Below the pieces are notes generated by a model. It did not search any database. It saw nothing but the letters and a program-made list of their open reading frames with translations, and was not told the origin of the DNA. Positions 4,086 through 59,387 of a DNA stretch of 59,976 bases are shown here, piece by piece. The DNA comes from Calothrix rhizosoleniae SC01. Lineage in GTDB: Bacteria > Cyanobacteriota > Cyanobacteriia > Cyanobacteriales > Nostocaceae. Where the stretch lies: positions 1 to 59,976 of the forward strand of contig NZ_FYBH01000158.1 in the NCBI RefSeq assembly GCF_900185595.1, in the 5' to 3' direction. A program made the position numbers and the translations under genes. The number at the start of each line of letters is the position of its first letter. Positions within the stretch are counted from its first letter, which is position 1.

Positions 4086-5825
4086 ATGATAACTCCATCA
4101 ATTCTTTTTCTGTCATCCACTACCTTGCCTCAAACAGATATTCCCCAACAATTTGATGTTCTTGTCGTCGGCGCTGGTGCAGCTGGTTTATATACAGCTT
4201 TGTGTATACCCCCTCACCTGCGAGTTGGCTTGATTACTAAAGAAACCGTTTCTTTATCTGCTAGCGATTGGGCACAGGGAGGTATTGCAGCAGCAGTAGC
4301 CCCGGAAGATTCCCCCAGTCTACATGTTGAAGATACCCTCAAAGCAGGAGCGGGTTTATGCGATCGCACTGCTGTTGAATTTATTGCCCAAAATGCTCCT
4401 AGCTGCATTCAATCTTTAGTAGACTTGGGAGTTGCTTTTGACCGTCACCAAGGTAATTTAGCATTAACCCTAGAAGCTGCTCACTCCCGTCACCGGGTTC
4501 TCCATGCGGCTGATACTACAGGGAGGGAAGTAACTACCACCCTCACTACCCAAGTATTAAAACGCCATAACATTCAGGTAATTCAAAAAGCTTTGGCTTT
4601 AGACCTATGGCTGGAACCACAAACCCAACACTGTCAAGGGATTAGTCTATTTTATCAAAATCAGATTTGCTGGATTAAGTCTGGTGCAGTTATCTTAGCT
4701 ACAGGGGGAGGGGGACAGGTATTTGCCCAAACCACCAATCCCGCCGTCAGTACGGGTGATGGAGTTGCCCTAGCATGGCGAGCAGGAGCCCAACTCCGGG
4801 ACTTAGAATTTGTCCAGTTCCATCCCACAGCTTTGACAAAACCTGGTGCTGATCGTTTCTTAATTAGTGAAGCTGTACGTGGTGAAGGGGCACATTTAAT
4901 TGATAACACAGGGCGACGTTTTGCCTTTGATTACCATAAAGATGGGGAACTGGCTCCTAGAGATGTGGTCAGTCGAGCTATTTTCAGTCATTTACAACAT
5001 ACATCCAGTCACCCCGCCACTGACAATGTATGGTTGGATATGCGTCCCATCTCCCCTGATAAAATTCGTCACCGTTTTCCTAATATTATTCAAGTTTGTC
5101 AGCACTGGGGCATTGATGTCTTCTGTGAACCCATTCCCGTAGCTCCAGCAGCTCACTACTGGATGGGAGGTATTGCCACAGATGTAAGTAACCACACCAA
5201 TATCCCTGGTTTATATGCTGTGGGAGAAGCAGCCAGCACAGGAGTACATGGAGCCAACCGCCTTGCTAGTAATTCTCTCCTAGAATGTATTGTGTTTGGG
5301 GCACAAATGACTAGGCTCAAGTTGGCAAATTTACCACCATCGGATGTATGCATACCAATTGTCAGGGAATTAGACTTATCTGAACATCAATGGCAAACTC
5401 AACAGCAAAAGCTACAAGAACTACGGCAAAATTTACCATGCCTGGTTTGGCAAAGTGCTGGGATTTCTCGCCTGGAATCAGGATTAACAGCTGCCATTTC
5501 TACGATTAAATCTTGGCAGCAGGAGTTTAATAATTTACCTTTAAGTCAATTTTTGTTCGCTCTCAAACCTCAAGAAACGATTAAGTTGGCTGCACCAGAT
5601 ATGGTAAGTAAATTACAGTTGTGGGCTGAAACTCGTAACTTACTAGATATCGCTTATTTGATTATTAACAGTGCTTTATTTAGAACTGAAAGTCGTGGAG
5701 GACACTACCGTACAGATTATCCTCACACCGATATTTCCTGGCAAGTTCATACCTTAGTACTGGGGAACAATTGGTGGAAATCTGCGAAAATCGACAAGTG
5801 TTCAGAATCAGCAGAGGGAAAGTGA
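4086..5825 (+). CDS. nadB: L-aspartate oxidase (quinolinate synthesis, NAD pathway)
   Basis: NadB oxidises L-aspartate to iminoaspartate, which NadA condenses with dihydroxyacetone phosphate to quinolinate, the first steps of NAD synthesis in cyanobacteria. The 579-residue protein belongs to the succinate dehydrogenase/fumarate reductase flavoprotein family. The FAD dinucleotide-binding motif VVGAGAAGLYTA lies at residues 27-38. It is followed by the family motif SDWAQGGIAAAV, the active-site region LEAAHSRHRVLHAADTTGRE, and the second FAD-contact block ATGGGGQVFAQTTNP. The substrate-site signature HPTAL, the GVHGANRLASNSLLECIVFG motif and the C-terminal helical domain ending ESRGGHYRTDYP are all present. 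The start at ATG 4086 gives a short N-terminal extension before the FAD domain. The stop codon is the first TGA of an 8-base tandem repeat. No partner gene lies next to it. Confidence 0.95.
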   Translation: MITPSILFLSSTTLPQTDIPQQFDVLVVGAGAAGLYTALCIPPHLRVGLITKETVSLSASDWAQGGIAAAVAPEDSPSLHVEDTLKAGAGLCDRTAVEFIAQNAPSCIQSLVDLGVAFDRHQGNLALTLEAAHSRHRVLHAADTTGREVTTTLTTQVLKRHNIQVIQKALALDLWLEPQTQHCQGISLFYQNQICWIKSGAVILATGGGGQVFAQTTNPAVSTGDGVALAWRAGAQLRDLEFVQFHPTALTKPGADRFLISEAVRGEGAHLIDNTGRRFAFDYHKDGELAPRDVVSRAIFSHLQHTSSHPATDNVWLDMRPISPDKIRHRFPNIIQVCQHWGIDVFCEPIPVAPAAHYWMGGIATDVSNHTNIPGLYAVGEAASTGVHGANRLASNSLLECIVFGAQMTRLKLANLPPSDVCIPIVRELDLSEHQWQTQQQKLQELRQNLPCLVWQSAGISRLESGLTAAISTIKSWQQEFNNLPLSQFLFALKPQETIKLAAPDMVSKLQLWAETRNLLDIAYLIINSALFRTESRGGHYRTDYPHTDISWQVHTLVLGNNWWKSAKIDKCSESAEGK

Positions 5826-5894
5826 TGGAGTGATGGAGTGATGGAGTGATGGAGTGATGGAGTGATGGAGTGATGGAGTGAGGGAGTGATGGGA
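5823..5894. repeat. Octanucleotide tandem repeat (TGATGGAG)n overlapping the nadB stop
   Basis: Seven perfect TGATGGAG units (5823-5878) followed by variants TGAGGGAG and TGATGGGA. The first TGA is the nadB stop codon. A pyrimidine repeat of the CCCTCTTT type follows at 5911-5946 and could pair loosely with it. The same purine/pyrimidine layout recurs at 34086-34190. Confidence 0.9.
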
Positions 5895-5972
5895 AGATGA
5901 GTCTAAATTACCCTCCTTCCCTCTTTCCCTCTTTCCCTCTTCCCACACTCCTCTGCTCCTGCCTATTCCTGA

Positions 5973-8241: not shown

Positions 8242-9084
8242 GTCTTTTAACTTATGAGGGAAGAATCCACAACTTTTAATTTGTATCAGGAATTTGGATT
8301 AGTTAACACTGTGATTGAGGCTCTCATCTTTGTCCTGGAACCTTTTGAGCATTGCTAATGTCCCTTTCCTGTACTATCTGTTCTTTCTTTCTATTAAACA
8401 AGTTTGGTATTGGTCGCTTGATGACCTCCCCCTTGGGATGGAATTTAACTTCAAAGCTCCCATAAGATATGTTAAGATAAAACCTGGCTATTAAGAGGAG
8501 TTTGCTACTCACAAAAAGTAATGTTCAGGAAATACCTTCCTTAACTCATTACTTTTAATTGAGAAACTTGTCTAAACCTGAGACTCTGTCCCAGGTCAAG
8601 TCAAAGCGAGAAGGTTTTATTACCGCCTTTCAGGCGTTGCGCCAGCGCGTTTTTCCTGAGGGTTAGAACTTCTCTACACAAGCCACTGGCATTTGGAAAA
8701 CAACCGAAAAATTATCGGTAGTCGATTATCCTACCTAAATCTTTTGGCTAATGTTGTCGCAAATGTCTGACCAAGGGCTGCTGACCACAGGGTAGATTAA
8801 AAACGCGGACGCTGGGGTAATATAAAGTGCCAAAGCGCGAAGTTGAAAAAATATTAAGTGCCTGATTTACCCAAAGACACTTTGATTTTCCTCTGACAAG
8901 GATATTAGTAAAAATATCATAACACGGCTTCTATTATTGAATGGGGTCAACACTTCCTAGGGAGTGAAAATGGTAGAGGAGAATATTGAAGTTAATCGGT
9001 CTGGAGTGATACCAAAATTCTGGAAATTCAGCAATAGCTGAAAATAATAACAATGAGGAAAAGCGGAAAATTAGTTCTTTAGAT
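8242..9084. other. Intergenic region between btpA and rimO
   Basis: About 840 bp separating divergent genes, with no convincing large gene. A 23-codon frame at 8970-9041 (ATG with GGGAG eight bases upstream) could be a leader peptide ahead of rimO, but this is weak. A palindrome-rich stretch GCGTTGCGCCAGCGCG near 8633 belongs to the interspersed repeats common in these genomes. Confidence 0.4.
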
Positions 9085-10404
9085 ATGGGTGAAAAGCCAA
9101 ACATTGCCATTGCTCACCTAGGTTGTGAAAAAAATCGCATTGATACAGAACATATGCTAGGTCTGCTGGTAGAAGCAGGTTATGGCGTAGATAACAATGA
9201 AAATTTAGCAGATTATGTAATTGTTAATACTTGTAGCTTTATTGAAGGCGCAAGGGAAGAATCTGTCAGGACTTTAGTGGAACTGGCGGAAGCAGATAAA
9301 AAAATTGTCATTACCGGTTGTATGGCACAACACTTTCAGGAGCAACTGTTAGATGAATTGCCAGAAGCAGTGGCAGTAGTCGGTACTGGGGATTATCAGA
9401 AAATAGTCAATGTTATTGAACGAGTAGAACAAGGAGAAAGAGTCAAACAGATCAGCGATGTGCCAACATATATAGCTGATGAAAACATTCCCCGCTATCG
9501 AACAACAACAGAAGGAGTTGCTTATCTGAGGGTAGCAGAAGGATGTGACTATAGTTGTGCCTTTTGTATCATTCCCCATTTGCGAGGCAAACAGCGATCG
9601 CGGACAATTGAATCGATTGTTAGTGAAGCAGAAGAGTTAGCCGCTCAAGGGGTAGAGGAAATTGTCTTGATTTCCCAGATTACTACCAATTACGGCTTAG
9701 ACATCTATGGCAAACCCAAGTTAGCAGAATTACTGCGGGCGCTGGGTAAGGTAAATGTGCCTTGGATTCGCATCCATTATGCTTATCCCACAGGATTAAC
9801 AACAGATGTACTGAATGCCATCAAAGAAACTGCCAACGTTCTTCCTTATTTAGATTTGCCTTTACAACATTCCCATCCGGAAGTACTGCGGGCAATGAAT
9901 CGTCCCTGGCAAGGGCGAGTCAATAACTCAGTGATTGAGCAAATAAAATCAACATTACCAGAAGCCGTTTTAAGAACAACATTTATTGTTGGCTTTCCCG
10001 GAGAAACAGAAGAACATTTTCAGCATTTATTGCAATTTGTCCAGCATCACCAATTCGATCATGTTGGTGTGTTTACTTTTTCCCCAGAGGTAGGTACAGC
10101 AGCCTACGATTTGCCTCACCAACTGTCTCAAGAAGTAATGGATGAACGGCGAGATGCCTTAATGACAGTACAACAGCCGATTTCTCTGCGAAAAAATCTC
10201 CAAGAAGTAGGCAAGGTGGTAGATGTACTGATAGAACAAGAAAATCCCCACACAGGAGAGTTAATTGGTCGTTCCGGCAGGTTCGCCCCAGAAGTTGACG
10301 GGCAGGTATATGTCCAAGGTGAAGTCAGATTGGGAACCATCGTGCCAGTATTGATCGAGAATGCCGATACTTATGACCTCTATGGTCAGGTAGTCCAGAA
10401 CTAA
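9085..10404 (+). CDS. rimO: Ribosomal protein S12 methylthiotransferase RimO
   Basis: RimO is a radical SAM enzyme that adds a methylthio group to an aspartate of ribosomal protein S12. The 439-residue protein has all three family domains. The N-terminal UPF0004 domain carries cysteines C14, C50 and C79 for the auxiliary iron-sulfur cluster. The radical SAM domain has [12 protein letters not shown] with C154, C158 and C161. The C-terminal TRAM domain starts around residue 370 ([13 protein letters not shown]) and ends near DLYGQV. The start [20 protein letters not shown] is the usual RimO opening and separates it from MiaB. The ribosome-binding site is weak. An RNA helicase gene follows after 86 bases on the same strand, possibly cotranscribed. 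Confidence 0.96.
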
Positions 10405-10490: not shown

Positions 10491-11984
10491 ATGAATCTTT
10501 CGTTCCAAGAATTAGGCCTTTCCCAAGAACGTACTCAACAATTAGAAAAATTAGGCTTTACTGAGCCAACCAATATCCAACAGCAAGCAATTCCCCATTT
10601 ACTCAATGGACGTGATGTAGTTGGGCAATCACAAACAGGTACTGGTAAAACAGCAGCATTCTCCCTACCAATTTTAGAACAGTTAGATGTAAAGCACAAA
10701 GCTGTACAATCCTTGATTTTGGCTCCAACAAGGGAATTGGCAATGCAAGTCCATACTGCCATATCCAATTTCGTTGGCAAACAAGGAATACGGGTTTTAG
10801 CAACTTATGGTGGTCAATCAATTGACCGGCAAATTATGCAACTCAAGCGGGGAGTGCATATAGTTGTGGGTACCCCAGGAAGGGTAATTGACCTACTAGA
10901 TCGGGGTTATTTGAAACTGGATGCTGTGAAGTGGTTCGTTTTAGATGAAGCCGACGAAATGTTAAGTATGGGCTTCATCGACGATGTGGAGAAAATTCTG
11001 TCTAAAGCACCTAAAGAGAGACAGACAGCTTTATTCTCAGCAACTATGCCCCCTTCAATTCGACAATTGGTGAACAATTTTTTAAGATCACCAGTTACTG
11101 TTACCGTACAACAACCTAAAGCTGCACCCAACAAAATTAATCAGCTAGCATACCTAATTCCTCGTCACTGGACAAAAGCCAGAGCATTACAACCAATTCT
11201 GGAAATGGAAGATCCAGAAACCGCGATTATCTTTGTCCGTACTCGTCGTACAGCAGCTGAACTTACCAATCAATTACAAATTGCTGGACATAGTGTAGAT
11301 GAATACCACGGTGACCTATCCCAACAAGCTAGAGAACGGCTGTTAAAGAGATTCCGCAATCGCCAAGTACGCTGGGTAGTAGCTACAGATATCGCTGCAC
11401 GAGGATTAGATGTGAGCGAACTATCCCATGTAATTAATTTTGACCTACCTGATAGCCCAGAAACCTACGTACACCGAATTGGTCGTACTGGTAGAGCTGG
11501 GAATGAAGGTACGGCTATTTCTTTGGTACAACCCTTTGAACGGCGTAAACAACAGTCCTTTGAGCGTCACGTACGTCAAAGTTGGCAGGTATTAAGTATT
11601 CCTACTAGGGCACGAATTGAAGCACGACAACTAGAAAAATTACAAACTCAAGTCCGCGACACTCTGACTGGGGAAAGACTGGCATCCTTTTTACCCATTG
11701 TTAGCGAATTGAGTGAGCAATATGATGCCCATGCGATCGCAGCAGCAGCTTTACAAATGGCTTACGATCAAACTCGTCCAGCTTGGTTACAAGCCGAGGA
11801 AATTCCAGAAGAGCAGATGAGTAAGCCTCAATTACGGAGTGGTCGTCGTCAATCTGGTGATCGTAAACGTTCTTCTGATGAGGAAAGAAGATCATCTGCT
11901 CCAAAGCCAAAGCCAAGGATATCCCGTCGTGAAGCATCTATATCTCCCAGCCAAAACTTGGATTCTAGCAATGCCAATAGCTAA
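10491..11984 (+). CDS. DEAD-box ATP-dependent RNA helicase (Crh type)
   Basis: A 497-residue DEAD-box helicase that unwinds RNA duplexes using ATP. Motifs in order: Q-motif region FTEPTNIQQQAIP (23-35), Walker A SQTGTGKT (47-54), APTRELA (78-84), TPGR (128-131), DEAD (152-155), SAT (183-185), IFVRTRRTA, ATDIAARGLDV and the arginine-finger motif HRIGRTGRAG. A helical region and a basic, Arg/Ser-rich disordered tail (about 440-497, GRRQSGDRKRSSDEERRSS) follow, as in cyanobacterial cold- and redox-responsive Crh helicases. Which Crh paralogue it is cannot be settled here. AGGAG eight bases before ATG supports the start. Confidence 0.95.
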   Translation: MNLSFQELGLSQERTQQLEKLGFTEPTNIQQQAIPHLLNGRDVVGQSQTGTGKTAAFSLPILEQLDVKHKAVQSLILAPTRELAMQVHTAISNFVGKQGIRVLATYGGQSIDRQIMQLKRGVHIVVGTPGRVIDLLDRGYLKLDAVKWFVLDEADEMLSMGFIDDVEKILSKAPKERQTALFSATMPPSIRQLVNNFLRSPVTVTVQQPKAAPNKINQLAYLIPRHWTKARALQPILEMEDPETAIIFVRTRRTAAELTNQLQIAGHSVDEYHGDLSQQARERLLKRFRNRQVRWVVATDIAARGLDVSELSHVINFDLPDSPETYVHRIGRTGRAGNEGTAISLVQPFERRKQQSFERHVRQSWQVLSIPTRARIEARQLEKLQTQVRDTLTGERLASFLPIVSELSEQYDAHAIAAAALQMAYDQTRPAWLQAEEIPEEQMSKPQLRSGRRQSGDRKRSSDEERRSSAPKPKPRISRREASISPSQNLDSSNANS

Positions 11985-12305
11985 GTAATTAGTTGCTTAA
12001 ATCATGTGTCCTAGTCTGGATAATCTGGATTTATTTTGGTTAACCAGACTTGTACACTGGGGTTTAATATCATGTTCGGTTAAAGACTTATGGTTAAGAC
12101 TGCAAGGGGCAAGTAAGTCACTGCGTTGCACGGGTTAAGCGCGTTGTAGCAAGTGGCGTAACCCGAAGGGTGCAGGGGGAGAAAGAGTTTTAAGATGTTT
12201 GCACCATGATCCGAACCATAAGTAATCTCCCGAATTTGATATAAAACAGTGTCCAAAAACCGATCTTAACTTACTCAAAAATCGTGTAAATCAGAAAATT
12301 ATTGT
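11985..12305. other. Intergenic region with a palindromic interspersed repeat
   Basis: About 320 bp. It contains CGGGTTA...TAACCCG (12131-12165) in a stretch rich in GCG/CGC palindromes. A related segment in reverse orientation lies at 16870-16893 inside another element, so it is an interspersed repeat. No gene seen. Confidence 0.45.
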
Positions 12306-54543: not shown

Positions 54544-54680
54544 TTAGGATTTGGGTAAAATTTGGGTTGTCAAATTTTATGAATATTCCCAGGGATTGAT
54601 CACATTTGATGAATATAACACTACGTAATTAGGGCGCGGACATTGTTGAAGACTCAAACCTATGAACAGTAAACTTATTA

Positions 54681-54807
54681 AGTAGGTAGGCGTAAAAAAT
54701 TATCGTTTGGATAAGACAGGGGGCAGGGGGCAGGGAGCAGGGGGAAAAAGGGTTTTAGCCTTATTTACTTTTCTCCACATAGTTTGGTTTTATTGTGCCG
54801 ACTTACT
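54681..54807. mobile_element. 127-bp TA-flanked miniature inverted-repeat element (copy 1)
   Basis: Imperfect terminal inverted repeats (AGTAGGTAGGCG and the complement of GCCGACTTACT) with TA on each flank. The interior has a purine run of four CAGGGGG/CAGGGAG units. It is about 94% identical over the same 127 bp to the copy at 56614-56740 (seven differences by eye). TA target duplication is typical of IS630/Tc1-type mobilisation; no such transposase is in the window. Confidence 0.8.
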
Positions 54808-54869
54808 TACTTGCGCATAGCGCTATAGTGCTTAATGAACACTTCACTTTATTTTATAGGGGTACAAAC

Positions 54870-56225
54870 ATGGAAATTTATCAAAAAATTTGGGAAAATG
54901 ATGAAAATCAATTTTCCGTTAGTGCTCGCAATAATCAAGGGGAATGGGATAACGAAGATGCAGATATTCTCTTAGATGAGCAGGTTAAAGCCAGTGGAAA
55001 ACGAGAAATTGACTTGGCTACCCATCCTCTATTTCATCGTGTCAACGAAAGTAAGTTATTTGATGAGAGTACAACTTATGTTAGTTTCATCAATTTATTA
55101 GATAATTATGCCATTCGCTCTGTTGATCCAGAATTTACATCTGAAGAGGAAGCAGCAGAGCAACAAAAATTCTTGTCCTTAATTATTAAAACTAAACCCA
55201 TGCAGATTGCACGGGAATATATCAATGAGGAATTTGGAGAAAACTTATCTGAAAAACAATTTCAGCAGAAGCTCTATCATATCTGGTTTGAGTTATATAC
55301 TAACTATTACAAAGGAAAGTCAACTGATTATTGTTCTGGTTTTGAACATGTTTTTGTTGGTGAAGGTAAATTTAATCTTCAAGCAGGAAACAAGAAGGAA
55401 AACTTCGGTAAAATTTCCGGCTATCATTCCTGGATCAAGTTTTATCTAGATGAGAAAAATCAACGAGTCAATTATTTAGGTTATAAATATGATCTCAAAG
55501 GTGAAGATGGTTCTGCAAACCCCAATGTTGTCACCTTACAACAAGTCCAAAATGTGACTAATATGCGAGGAGATGTAATTGCTCAACTATTTAAAAAGAA
55601 AGGGGGATTTTTTGTTGGTCCTAGTCCGGAATGTGAAATAGCGATCGCAACAGTGGCTTTTTATGAAAGTGTATATGGCAAAATTCAAGACCAGCGACGG
55701 GCGACAATTAATGGAGCGACCTACGATTTAGTAATTTACCGCAATATTAATCCCAATGGCTCCCGAGGTGAGCTAATTCGTTCTTTCTTTCCTATTTTTC
55801 TAGGACTAGAAGAATTAGATGGGAAAGAAAAACCAGAAAAAGATGAGCCAGAAACAACACCTCCTGTAGTCAATCCCATAGACATTAATTTAAAAAATGA
55901 TGGTGTAGTAGTAATTACTTCTACCTTACCTAATCCCAGAGGCGTAGATGATGGTAATGAATGGGTAGAGTTGAAAAATAATACGAATCAAGCCATTGAT
56001 TTAACAGGTTGGCAATTACTAGATAAATTAGATCGTCCTCAACCTTTGAAGGGAACTATAGCAGCCAATGAAGTCAAACGTTTTAATATTACCCGCACTC
56101 ATCCAAGTGGGATGCAATTAACTAATAAATCAGGTTTGATTTCTTTGGAGGATGAAAAATCTAACTTGATTGCAAAAGTTAAATATTCCCGTGCTCATTC
56201 TGGTGAGGTTATAACATTTAATTAA
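54870..56225 (+). CDS. EndoU-family endoribonuclease with C-terminal lamin-tail domain
   Basis: A 451-residue protein. Residues 60-320 match the XendoU/EndoU RNase fold: GFEHVFVGEGKF with H160, SGYHSWIKFYLDEKNQ with H186, NYLGYKYDL, and FKKKGGFFVGPSPECEIAIA, whose Lys (one of 242-244) sits where the catalytic Lys belongs. EndoU enzymes cut RNA at uridylates in a metal-dependent manner. The spacing between the two His residues is 26, against about 16 in vertebrate XendoU, because of an insert. Residues 325-451 form an immunoglobulin-like lamin-tail domain (NEWVELKNNTNQAIDLTGWQ). No signal peptide is seen. ATG 54870 has AGGGG upstream; the open frame continues upstream into the mobile element to a TTG at 54795, which I reject. 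Confidence 0.85.
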   Translation: MEIYQKIWENDENQFSVSARNNQGEWDNEDADILLDEQVKASGKREIDLATHPLFHRVNESKLFDESTTYVSFINLLDNYAIRSVDPEFTSEEEAAEQQKFLSLIIKTKPMQIAREYINEEFGENLSEKQFQQKLYHIWFELYTNYYKGKSTDYCSGFEHVFVGEGKFNLQAGNKKENFGKISGYHSWIKFYLDEKNQRVNYLGYKYDLKGEDGSANPNVVTLQQVQNVTNMRGDVIAQLFKKKGGFFVGPSPECEIAIATVAFYESVYGKIQDQRRATINGATYDLVIYRNINPNGSRGELIRSFFPIFLGLEELDGKEKPEKDEPETTPPVVNPIDINLKNDGVVVITSTLPNPRGVDDGNEWVELKNNTNQAIDLTGWQLLDKLDRPQPLKGTIAANEVKRFNITRTHPSGMQLTNKSGLISLEDEKSNLIAKVKYSRAHSGEVITFN

Positions 56226-56406: not shown

Positions 56407-57162
56407 ATGAGTATTCAAGCAGCATACGATCATTGGTCAGACACATACGATTCTGATGACAATTTTACACGAGATTTAGATCTAGCAGTCACCAGGGAAA
56501 TTTTGATTGGTTTGAGGTATAAATCAGTTATTGAGATTGGTTGTGGTACAGGTAAAAATACTGTTCTGCTTTCACAAATTGCTGAACAAGTTCATGCCAT
56601 AGATTTTTCAGTAAGTAGGTTGGCGTAAAAAATTATCGTTTGGATAAGGCAGGGGGCAGGGAGCAGGGAGCAGGGGGAACAAGGGTTTTAGGCTTATTTA
56701 CTATTCTTCACATAGTTTGGTTTTATTGTGCCGACTTACTTATCCATGATTGAAATAGCTAAAAAGAAAGTGAATTCAGCCAACGTGATATTTTCTACAG
56801 GGGATATAACAAAGGGATGGATTTATAGTGATGAATCAGCTGATTTGGTAACTTGTAACCTCGTTTTAGAACACATAGAAGAACTATCATTTATATTTTC
56901 CGAAGCATCTCGTGTATTAATGAAAGGAGGACAATTATTCATATCTGAGCTACATCAATTTAGACAATATAAAGGAGGAAAAGCTAATTTTCAAATCGAT
57001 AAAAATATTATTGAAATCGAAGCATTTTTACATCATATATCAGATTTTTTTAACATAGGAAAAAATCACAACTTCATCCTGGAAAACTTTCAGGAGTGGT
57101 GGCATGAACAAGATAAAAATAAACCACCAAGACTTGTATCATTCTTATTTATAAAGTATTAA
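56407..57162 (+). pseudogene. Class I methyltransferase split by a 127-bp mobile element
   Basis: The first part (56407-56613) encodes MSIQAAYDHWSDTYDSDDNF to HAIDFSV with motif I VIEIGCGTGKNTVLL. After the element, the frame resumes at 56743 with SMIEIAKKKVNSANVIFSTG, motif IV DLVTCNLVLEHIEELSFIF and a C-terminal part ending at 57162. Taking out 56614-56740 together with one TA copy (56741-56742) joins GTA directly to TCC ATG ATT in frame, giving an intact protein of about 208 residues (DFSVSMIEIAKKKV, the normal methyltransferase motif). The gene is therefore a recently inactivated small-molecule-type methyltransferase; no substrate can be assigned. Confidence 0.85.
56614..56740. mobile_element. 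127-bp TA-flanked miniature inverted-repeat element (copy 2)
   Basis: Same element as 54681-54807, flanked by TA at 56612-56613 and 56741-56742. It carries stop codons in the host frame (TAA at 56626). The purine run differs by one base from copy 1. It interrupts a methyltransferase gene, which proves insertion and marks the element boundaries. Confidence 0.85.
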
Positions 57163-57525: not shown

Positions 57526-57597
57526 TTAAAACATTCTAGTTAGGAATCATTGGTACTGTTACTTTTATTCTACAGATAACTCATTTACCTACATCAA

Positions 57598-59079
57598 TTA
57601 AGAATTTAATGGGTTCTTAGAAATTATTGCCTCAATTTTTTGCATTAGATACTCCCAACGCTTTTTATCTTCCTCGTATCTTGCATTTGCTTCTTTGACA
57701 TCTGTCTGACAGTGTGGACAAATCTCTTCATGGTTCCAAATAAACTGATTGCAGTTCTTGCACATTTCCAGTTTCGGCGGCACTCTCCCCTCTAGATGAT
57801 TGCCATCTTCGACTGTTGTTAGCTCTGAAGAATTTATTACAGGTTGAGCGATTCTTTGTCTTGGCATTTTTTCCCAGTCATATTCAGAACTTGTTGCACG
57901 CCCTGGGATTGGTTCTTGTATCAGTTCAAATTCACCAACAGCAAACGGACTTTGAGCCGCATCTTTGACCTTGCGAATTTTTTCCCGCAGCCCCTGTTTC
58001 TCTAACTCTAAAACCCTATGATGGCAGTAGGGATTATTTCCTGGTTTACCCAGAAGTGAATGGGAAGTCCAAGTACAGCCCCCTCGGCAAACGTCAGCGT
58101 AGTAGCAAGTTCGACAAAATCCCCATAAATCATCTATGGATCTGAGTCGTCCAAAGTGAATTTCTTCACTCGTATTCCAAATATCTTCAAGGGATAGGTC
58201 TCTGATATTACCTCCTGCATATCCTACAGTTGGAAGCGATGGACATCCTTTAACTGTACCGTCCGCTTCCAAACCAATAGCTGTTTGACCAGCAGTACAG
58301 CCGTTATAATGAGACGTAGAATTCCCTATGCTACGAAATTTATGCTCGTAAGGCCCAAAGTAACCAACATTGTTTCCAGGAACCATAGTTAGTCCTCTCT
58401 CAAGGGCTTCATCGAAGAGCCGAGCTAACAGAGGCATAAGTTCAAAAAGCTGGTATGGTTGTAAAATGATGTGGTCATTATCAACAGCATTTCCCATGGC
58501 CACTGTCAACTGAATCTGCCATTGCTGTGCGCCAGCGTCAATAATTTGATCCATTAACTGACTCAGCATAGGTATGGTTTCTGGACCAATTTGTGTATTA
58601 ACACTGCGATTTAGTCCTGCATCCTTGGCACGTCGCAAGGTATCAATTGCCATTTGATAGGATCCAGGTACTCCCCGTAGGCGATCGTGTAATTCTGGCA
58701 ATCCATCAATGGATACTCCAATTCCCTGTAATCCTGCCTCGATAGCCTCTTCAAGTTTCTCTTGGGTGAAATTAAGGGCACCTGTCTGTATGGCACAGTA
58801 GATATGATGATTTCTAATTGCTTTGACGATCTCCATCCAATCGCGACGCAAAAATGCTTCGCCACCAATCAGAGTTATTTCCCTTGTTCCCAGTTTAGCC
58901 AGCTGATCTACCACATCAAGACATTCTTGAGTTGTTAACTCATCGTGTCGGGGTTTACCTGCTCTAGAACCGCAATGCTGGCATTTAAGATTGCAGGCAA
59001 GAGTAATTTCCCAAACAACATGGACAGGGGTATGATGTCGATAATCATTCTCTGTGCGGGTTCTCGCTGGTGTTGGCAT
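57598..59079 (-). CDS. Radical SAM/SPASM peptide maturase (GDL-peptide associated)
   Basis: A 493-residue radical SAM enzyme. The SAM-cluster motif LACNLKCQHC gives C29, C33, C36. The SPASM domain binds auxiliary iron-sulfur clusters through C261, C279, C322, C325, C331, C335 and C352 (segments GCTAGQTAIGLEADGTVKGC and FCRTCYYADVCRGGC). A C-terminal zinc ribbon (CKNCNQ at 440-443 and CPHCQT at 454-457) is an unusual addition. Such enzymes install thioether, C-C or epimer modifications on ribosomal peptides. Its neighbour, read first on the same strand, encodes a 58-residue GDL-type peptide, so it is very probably the maturase. GGAGG lies nine bases before the ATG. Confidence 0.88.
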   Translation of the reverse strand: MPTPARTRTENDYRHHTPVHVVWEITLACNLKCQHCGSRAGKPRHDELTTQECLDVVDQLAKLGTREITLIGGEAFLRRDWMEIVKAIRNHHIYCAIQTGALNFTQEKLEEAIEAGLQGIGVSIDGLPELHDRLRGVPGSYQMAIDTLRRAKDAGLNRSVNTQIGPETIPMLSQLMDQIIDAGAQQWQIQLTVAMGNAVDNDHIILQPYQLFELMPLLARLFDEALERGLTMVPGNNVGYFGPYEHKFRSIGNSTSHYNGCTAGQTAIGLEADGTVKGCPSLPTVGYAGGNIRDLSLEDIWNTSEEIHFGRLRSIDDLWGFCRTCYYADVCRGGCTWTSHSLLGKPGNNPYCHHRVLELEKQGLREKIRKVKDAAQSPFAVGEFELIQEPIPGRATSSEYDWEKMPRQRIAQPVINSSELTTVEDGNHLEGRVPPKLEMCKNCNQFIWNHEEICPHCQTDVKEANARYEEDKKRWEYLMQKIEAIISKNPLNS

Positions 59080-59115
59080 AATTCATCCTCCACTTTATTC
59101 TCAATTTAGACATAC

Positions 59116-59217
59116 TCAGCATTAGACATCTCCAAAAAAGACTCATGAATCAGGGATTCATTCTCGGTTCCTTAGAGATGTCTAATGTTGACAGACGGCT
59201 ATTAGCCCTGTTAGCCG
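59116..59217 (-). promoter_or_regulatory. Structured RNA element between peptide gene and maturase gene
   Basis: Two hairpins lie in the gap. (1) ACGGCTA/TAGCCGT, a 7-bp stem that starts at the peptide stop codon. (2) A 17-bp stem with one G-T pair (59116-59132 with 59175-59191), whose loop holds a further ATGAATC/GATTCAT hairpin. Neither is followed by a U-run on the minus strand. A transcript-balancing attenuator or stability element is plausible. Confidence 0.55.
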
Positions 59218-59387
59218 TTCCTTTCAAGCTTTATAATTTCCAGCTTCAGAGCTTCAAGGGCGGCTGAGACATCACCCGCCTCTTTGAGCCACTCTTCGGC
59301 TTGCCGCGTCATAGCTTTCATCCTTTGCAGATCGCCCGAAGCTGCAGATTCATGGATAGCCGCTGCATATAAAAGTTGTATTGCCAT
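59211..59387 (-). CDS. GDL-motif (DUF1843-like) peptide, probable maturase substrate
   Basis: A 58-residue peptide: MAIQLLYAAAIHESAASGDL, QRMKAMTRQAEEWLKEAGDV, SAALEALKLEIIKLERNG. It matches my recollection of the DUF1843 family, whose members share an AIHEAxASGDL core and are found next to radical SAM/SPASM maturases, hence 'GDL peptides'. It has GDL at 18-20 and a related GDV at 38-40, one Trp (33), one Tyr (7) and no Cys. The region after GDL is helical and amphipathic. The start is firm: GGAGG eight bases before ATG 59387. An extended frame to 59459 has no ribosome-binding site. The modified residue is not predictable from sequence. Confidence 0.8.
   Translation of the reverse strand: MAIQLLYAAAIHESAASGDLQRMKAMTRQAEEWLKEAGDVSAALEALKLEIIKLERNG

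Follow-up and report, generated by a model that had tools for sequence, protein, structure and literature searches.

PlpX (IPR026482) is a radical SAM enzyme that removes tyramine at Xaa-Tyr-Gly (PMC11002830, PMC10533398). In the PlpXY system the precursor gene lies beside the enzyme gene, as in the locus described here, and the substrate consists of a Nif11 leader followed by a core. A second group of relatives, the DUF1842-DUF1843 proteins (PDB 8t0b family), is known from Burkholderia and Chromobacterium. Their DUF1843 part is attached C-terminally to a beta-barrel, and an invariant tyrosine lies just past a flexible linker. Stationary-phase cultures of Burkholderia thailandensis show a strong increase in DUF1842/DUF1843 transcripts (PMC12322963), while a related operon in Chromobacterium is induced approximately 30-fold by quorum sensing (PMC12114271).

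Pairs of a DUF1843 peptide and a TIGR03913 enzyme are already known as a family. No reaction has been assigned to them in the accessible literature; Scott et al. 2022 (Chem) may cover it. Unless reported there, the assignment of a site and a chemistry, the description of a zinc-ribbon module in the absence of PlpY, and the association with a methyltransferase would be new.

The DUF1843/TIGR03913 gene pair

The window, i.e. the whole stretch of 59,976 nucleotides that was analysed (Calothrix rhizosoleniae SC01, contig NZ_FYBH01000158.1), carries one such pair on the minus strand near its right end, with the following features:

59211 to 59387, minus strand: DUF1843 (PF08898) mini-protein, the predicted substrate, with a GGAGG ribosome-binding site and a three-helix model
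59367 to 59369, minus strand: codon of Tyr7, the predicted excision site (Leu6-Tyr7-Ala8), invariant in 82/82 domains and in a context like that of spliceotide XYG sites
59080 to 59210, minus strand: spacer between peptide and maturase genes with a strong RNA hairpin (approximately 20-bp stem, z = -3.7), hairpins being found in relatives as well
57598 to 59079, minus strand: radical SAM/SPASM maturase of 493 amino acids (TIGR03913, 752.5 bits), sister to TIGR04103
57709 to 57762, minus strand: C-terminal zinc ribbon of the maturase (C440-C457), present in 29/29 complete family members and in 0 PlpX-type enzymes
57579 to 57597, minus strand: deletion junction with the remnant of a methyltransferase start, GGTAAATGAG, identified by alignment with the Calothrix loci L003 (truncated) and L012 (intact)

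The original prediction had proposed a comparison with NCBIfam, and the searches placed the enzyme above the TIGR03913 cut-off of 591.75 bits and the peptide in DUF1843 (Pfam, 72.9 bits, residues 6-56), the latter being the sole DUF1843 match in this genome. The mini-protein counts 58 amino acids, begins MAIQLLYAAAIHESAASGDLQ and has as residues 1-22 the tryptic peptide MAIQLLYAAAIHESAASGDLQR. Its single tyrosine is found in the spacing Tyr7-x10-Gly18-Asp19-Leu20, and as it contains zero cysteines, thioether chemistry had been correctly excluded. The maturase gene follows after a gap of 131 nt, and GGAGG ribosome-binding sites were read from the sequence 7-8 nt upstream of both genes. The enzyme carries a complete radical SAM motif (C29-x3-C33-x2-C36), seven SPASM-region cysteines (C261, C279, C322, C325, C331, C335 and C352) and a four-cysteine zinc ribbon (C440-x2-C443...C454-x2-C457), exactly as originally counted. 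With an enzyme over the family cut-off, an adjacent DUF1843 peptide with Y-x10-GDL and the zinc ribbon, the locus is a member of the TIGR03913 system, and it is close to certain that the two products form a peptide-maturase pair. While relatives often encode two to three peptide copies, the window pair has a single one.

Among 386 cyanobacterial genomes, only that of the window holds an enzyme over the TIGR03913 cut-off, and the same applies to DUF1843 among 373 cyanobacterial genomes. Three of 399 Pseudomonadota genomes presented a strong TIGR03913-type enzyme, with DUF1843 adjacent in the same three. DUF1843 lacking a radical SAM neighbour had been named at the outset as evidence against a modification system, and no sound case of it emerged: the one further match in these 399 genomes is weak and has neither the Tyr segment nor a maturase. 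The pair was found too in Caulobacter, Nitrospirillum, Azospirillum, Niveispirillum, Tistrella and Lysobacter, in the Bacteroidota genus Aureibacter, and in a Burkholderiales-type genome (G519), a grouping inferred from its DUF1842-DUF1843 fusions. In the latter a TIGR03913 maturase adjoins the fusion, as it adjoins the peptide in the window, where the peptide is stand-alone instead of a domain on a beta-barrel. Maturase and DUF1843 were side by side in every lineage examined, and this adjacency and co-occurrence bear out the original reading of the colinear genes as a modification pair. Such a distribution points to an old pair, a mobile one or one that has often been lost; within the sample its two members are together. 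No recurring transporter or protease was found near the fuller DUF1843/TIGR03913 loci, the original prediction having seen none near the pair itself; on the upstream side of the peptide gene, the window's contig offers just 589 bp on which to judge this.

Kinship of the maturase with PlpX

The second-best NCBIfam family of the maturase is TIGR04103, the PlpX family (481 bits over residues 18-392, under its cut-off of 725), and the next family reaches 160 bits. Between TIGR03913 and PlpX-type enzymes identity is approximately 49%. In a tree of 58 enzymes with SH-aLRT supports, the TIGR03913 and PlpX-type groups each fall on one side of their own branch (88, 89), and together with two orphans they form one clade (97), the window enzyme belonging to the sister group and not to that of PlpX. 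Approximately 20 positions are common to both groups and missing in 13/13 outgroup enzymes, including R39, E67, I71, A75, G100, Q163, T192, Q207, N236, N237, P243, W337 and T338. The structural model of the maturase matches the general SPASM maturases SkfB, PqqE and SuiB, a comparison by which chemistries are not separable. C-C coupling, epimerisation and side-chain oxidation had originally been listed as possible chemistries; the list omits tyramine excision, the reaction of this sister family.

The invariant tyrosine of DUF1843

From maturase loci in three phyla, 82 distinct DUF1843 domains were collected. Tyrosine at alignment column 6 (Tyr7 in the window) is present in 82/82 and is the sole invariant residue. 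The residue before it is L, P or M in 96% of the domains and the one after it G or A in 93% (Gly 47%, Ala 46%, with few YM or YD), as in RPLYAVTI, IKPYGVAV and VLPYGVAI; the site of the window's mini-protein reads LYA, i.e. with Ala at +1. This Tyr motif is retained in stand-alone, tandem and DUF1842-fused forms. Three Tyr-motif units per protein occur in Lysobacter, and an additional RPLYAAPP or RALYGVPP is found in Tistrella and Niveispirillum. GDL, which gave the family its published name and on which the original prediction had focused together with GDV, is probably the wrong place to look, since its letters vary among relatives (G90 D78 L61 in the 82 domains, with GDM, GDR, GEL, GNL, NDV, GLL, GSL and others as variants) and Tyr7 is invariant. 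We regard Tyr7 as very probably the maturase's target.

The AlphaFold model of the mini-protein (mean pLDDT 85, lower over the first ten residues) comprises helices at 2-17, 20-37 and 41-57, with Tyr7 within helix 1. Because the GD of GDL (18-19) and the GD of GDV (38-39) are placed at the turns preceding helices 2 and 3, the 20-residue GDL/GDV spacing is a structural repeat, one of the two explanations first offered for it. The other, paired and equivalent modification sites, is not supported, given the varying letters and positions of GD and the fit to the helix turns. A search for PDB structural relatives of the model returned none that were significant.

Likeness of the tyrosine site to spliceotide precursors

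The substrate tyrosine of the PlpX-type systems is flanked by the same kinds of residues. In the PlpX-type loci collected, the Nif11-class precursors encoded next to the enzyme yielded 40 distinct YG core sites, e.g. QPLYGVV and RPLYGVI, with L, P or M before Tyr in 82%. The motif [LPM]Y[GA] was found in 93% of DUF1843 sites versus 2.5% of 2530 background tyrosines, and the longer P[LPM]Y[GA] in 41% of DUF1843 sites, 0.12% of background tyrosines and 55% of the Nif11-class YG sites. Since the DUF1843 domains are homologous, the match counts as one evolutionary observation and not as 82, namely a single coincidence at the level of the family, whose probability lies between about 1 in 40 and 1 in 800. 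An unsupervised comparison of the DUF1843 and precursor profiles aligned lYgvaI with lYGVvv only, a weak match (8 columns, p = 0.005). In a Tyr-context profile the DUF1843 sites ranked at a median percentile of 0.98 against background, with imperfect separation, as the DUF1843 tyrosines before the second GD turn (YGD) also scored fairly high. For this reason the profile was dropped as sole classifier and the simple motif frequencies are reported too.

Tyrosine repeats were also observed further away in the enzyme tree. A deep PlpX-type locus (L104, 431-1036) holds a precursor-like ORF with five QPKYGLPMPI repeats, and precursor-like ORFs beside related radical SAM enzymes carry TKYGINTP repeats in a near-outgroup locus (L111, 2662-2979) and TKYMPP repeats in another (L110, 1041-1358), none of the three having an NCBIfam match. 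Repeats of the Tyr-Gly/Met type thus appear to be a recurrent feature of the larger clade. Adjoining a deep PlpX-type enzyme is a small lipoprotein-like ORF (L106, 2703-3041), a possible XYG substrate, which has a zinc ribbon at its N-terminus and whose lipobox is followed by LAACYGAPPP.

The zinc ribbon and the absence of PlpY

A PlpY-like gene is present at 21 PlpX-type loci, and none was found at the DUF1843 loci. The DUF1843 peptide itself was considered as a PlpY homologue and rejected, as profile similarity was absent. All 29 complete TIGR03913-type enzymes carry a C-terminal zinc ribbon of the form CxxC-x10-CPxC, in contrast to the PlpX-type enzymes, none of which has it. The ribbon first noted as an extra of this enzyme is therefore present, but it is a trait of the family and not peculiar to one member. 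In genome G738 (L132, about 8845-9105) it is encoded on its own, by an 86-residue ORF that immediately follows the enzyme gene, in the position that PlpY occupies in PlpX operons. The DUF1843 domain of this genome has an unusual VYD site. On a Tropicibacter plasmid (L128, 3581-5347) a related radical SAM enzyme has a zinc ribbon at its N-terminus; DUF1843 was not found in the annotated stretch of this locus, where the neighbours are a second radical SAM gene and one for a trypsin-like peptidase. From these arrangements we infer that the zinc ribbon may be a detachable partner module.

Proposed reaction and alternatives

By analogy with PlpX, we favour, with moderate confidence, a splicease-type reaction in which tyramine is excised at Tyr7 of the DUF1843 mini-protein. 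The maturase would generate a 5'-deoxyadenosyl radical from SAM, and this radical would attack Tyr7. The tyramine part of Tyr7 (C8H9NO, -135.068 Da) would be removed and its leftover carbonyl rejoined to the Leu6 carbonyl, so that close to the beginning of helix 1 an internal alpha-keto-beta-amino acid, a ketoamide, would form at Leu6-Ala8. The helical part of the mini-protein could serve as recognition and display scaffold, with GDL and GDV marking the turns preceding helices 2 and 3, while the C-terminal zinc ribbon might stand in for the substrate-docking or partner role of PlpY. The product may act as an intracellular electrophile or protease inhibitor, as suggested by the spliceotides.

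The chief doubts concern the residue at +1, PlpY and the fold. PlpX substrates have Gly at +1 (XYG). Half of the DUF1843 sites, that of the window included, have Ala there instead (XYA), and YM or YD is found in a few. PlpY is needed with PlpX and is absent here, the tyrosine lies in a predicted helix of a small folded protein instead of a loose core behind a Nif11 leader, and the maturase scores below the PlpX family cut-off (481 vs 725).

Tyr7 could alternatively be altered with its backbone atoms kept, by cross-linking, by a bond (C-C or C-O) to a neighbouring residue, or by oxidation. Many such bonds are made by SPASM enzymes (PMC8326336), and a tyrosine that is invariant while +1 is not always Gly, unlike in PlpX substrates, would suit them. 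We consider this rather less probable, as the 82 domains hold no second residue near Tyr7 of comparable invariance and the spliceases are the nearest characterised relatives of the enzyme. It is unlikely that the peptide is instead a carrier, adaptor or antitoxin-like partner and that another protein is the maturase's substrate. Such a role would agree with the fusion of DUF1843 to the DUF1842 beta-barrel and with an earlier proposal that DUF1843 drives assembly; self-assembly, however, was not seen (PMC10994174), nothing else recurs at the loci save a methyltransferase in some, and the Tyr motif is kept in all three forms of the domain. Least probable is a change in helix 1 or around GDL that leaves the mass unaltered, such as epimerisation. 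Epimerases do exist among the radical SAM enzymes of RiPP pathways, and the plp cluster encodes PlpD along with PlpX (PMC11002830). The 25 top-scoring NCBIfam matches listed for the maturase include no radical SAM epimerase family, however, and the GDL letters vary and sit at helix turns.

Returning to tyramine excision, the reaction is now a prediction of a single mass at a single residue. If true, it would mean that a splicease can work on a folded mini-protein independently of PlpY, which would be of use for placing ketoamides in proteins. It would also give a chemistry to a gene family that is strongly induced in Burkholderia and Chromobacterium in stationary phase or by quorum sensing. 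More tentatively, DUF1843 might represent widespread folded mini-proteins that are spliced in place, leaderless and unexported, by PlpY-independent spliceases in which the ribbon replaces PlpY, the ketoamide working intracellularly and being altered by the methyltransferase in several lineages.

Methyltransferase, spacer hairpin and neighbourhood

A class I methyltransferase gene is located directly 3' of the maturase in Symploca, Oscillatoria, one Calothrix and Aureibacter (intact in L004 at 11482-12174, L005 at 11511-12170, L012 at 11496-12203 and L127 at 5402-5965), and five Caulobacter loci have a relative of it approximately 1 kb away. In the nearest Calothrix locus (L003, 9257-9411) the gene is truncated, with only its two ends left, while the deletion in the window begins just past the start codon. 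Because of this deletion, and because no copy of the maturase-linked methyltransferase was found elsewhere in the genome, what is left in the window may be a three-gene unit in reduced form.

The hairpin between the peptide and maturase genes has counterparts of unrelated sequence at the same spacer position in several other loci, not in all, and is a probable attenuator or processing site. Many RiPP operons make more peptide than enzyme, and the hairpin would fit a device with this outcome.

Elsewhere in the window, a 124-bp MITE-like element (56620-56745) is inserted in another class I methyltransferase gene (56407-57162, plus strand), and a further copy is located at 54679-54809. Since at least 40 copies with 99-100% identity are present in the same genome, very recent bursts are suggested. 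Finally, an XendoU endoribonuclease domain and a Lamin Tail Domain are joined in the product of the gene at 54795-56225, here in a bacterial genome.
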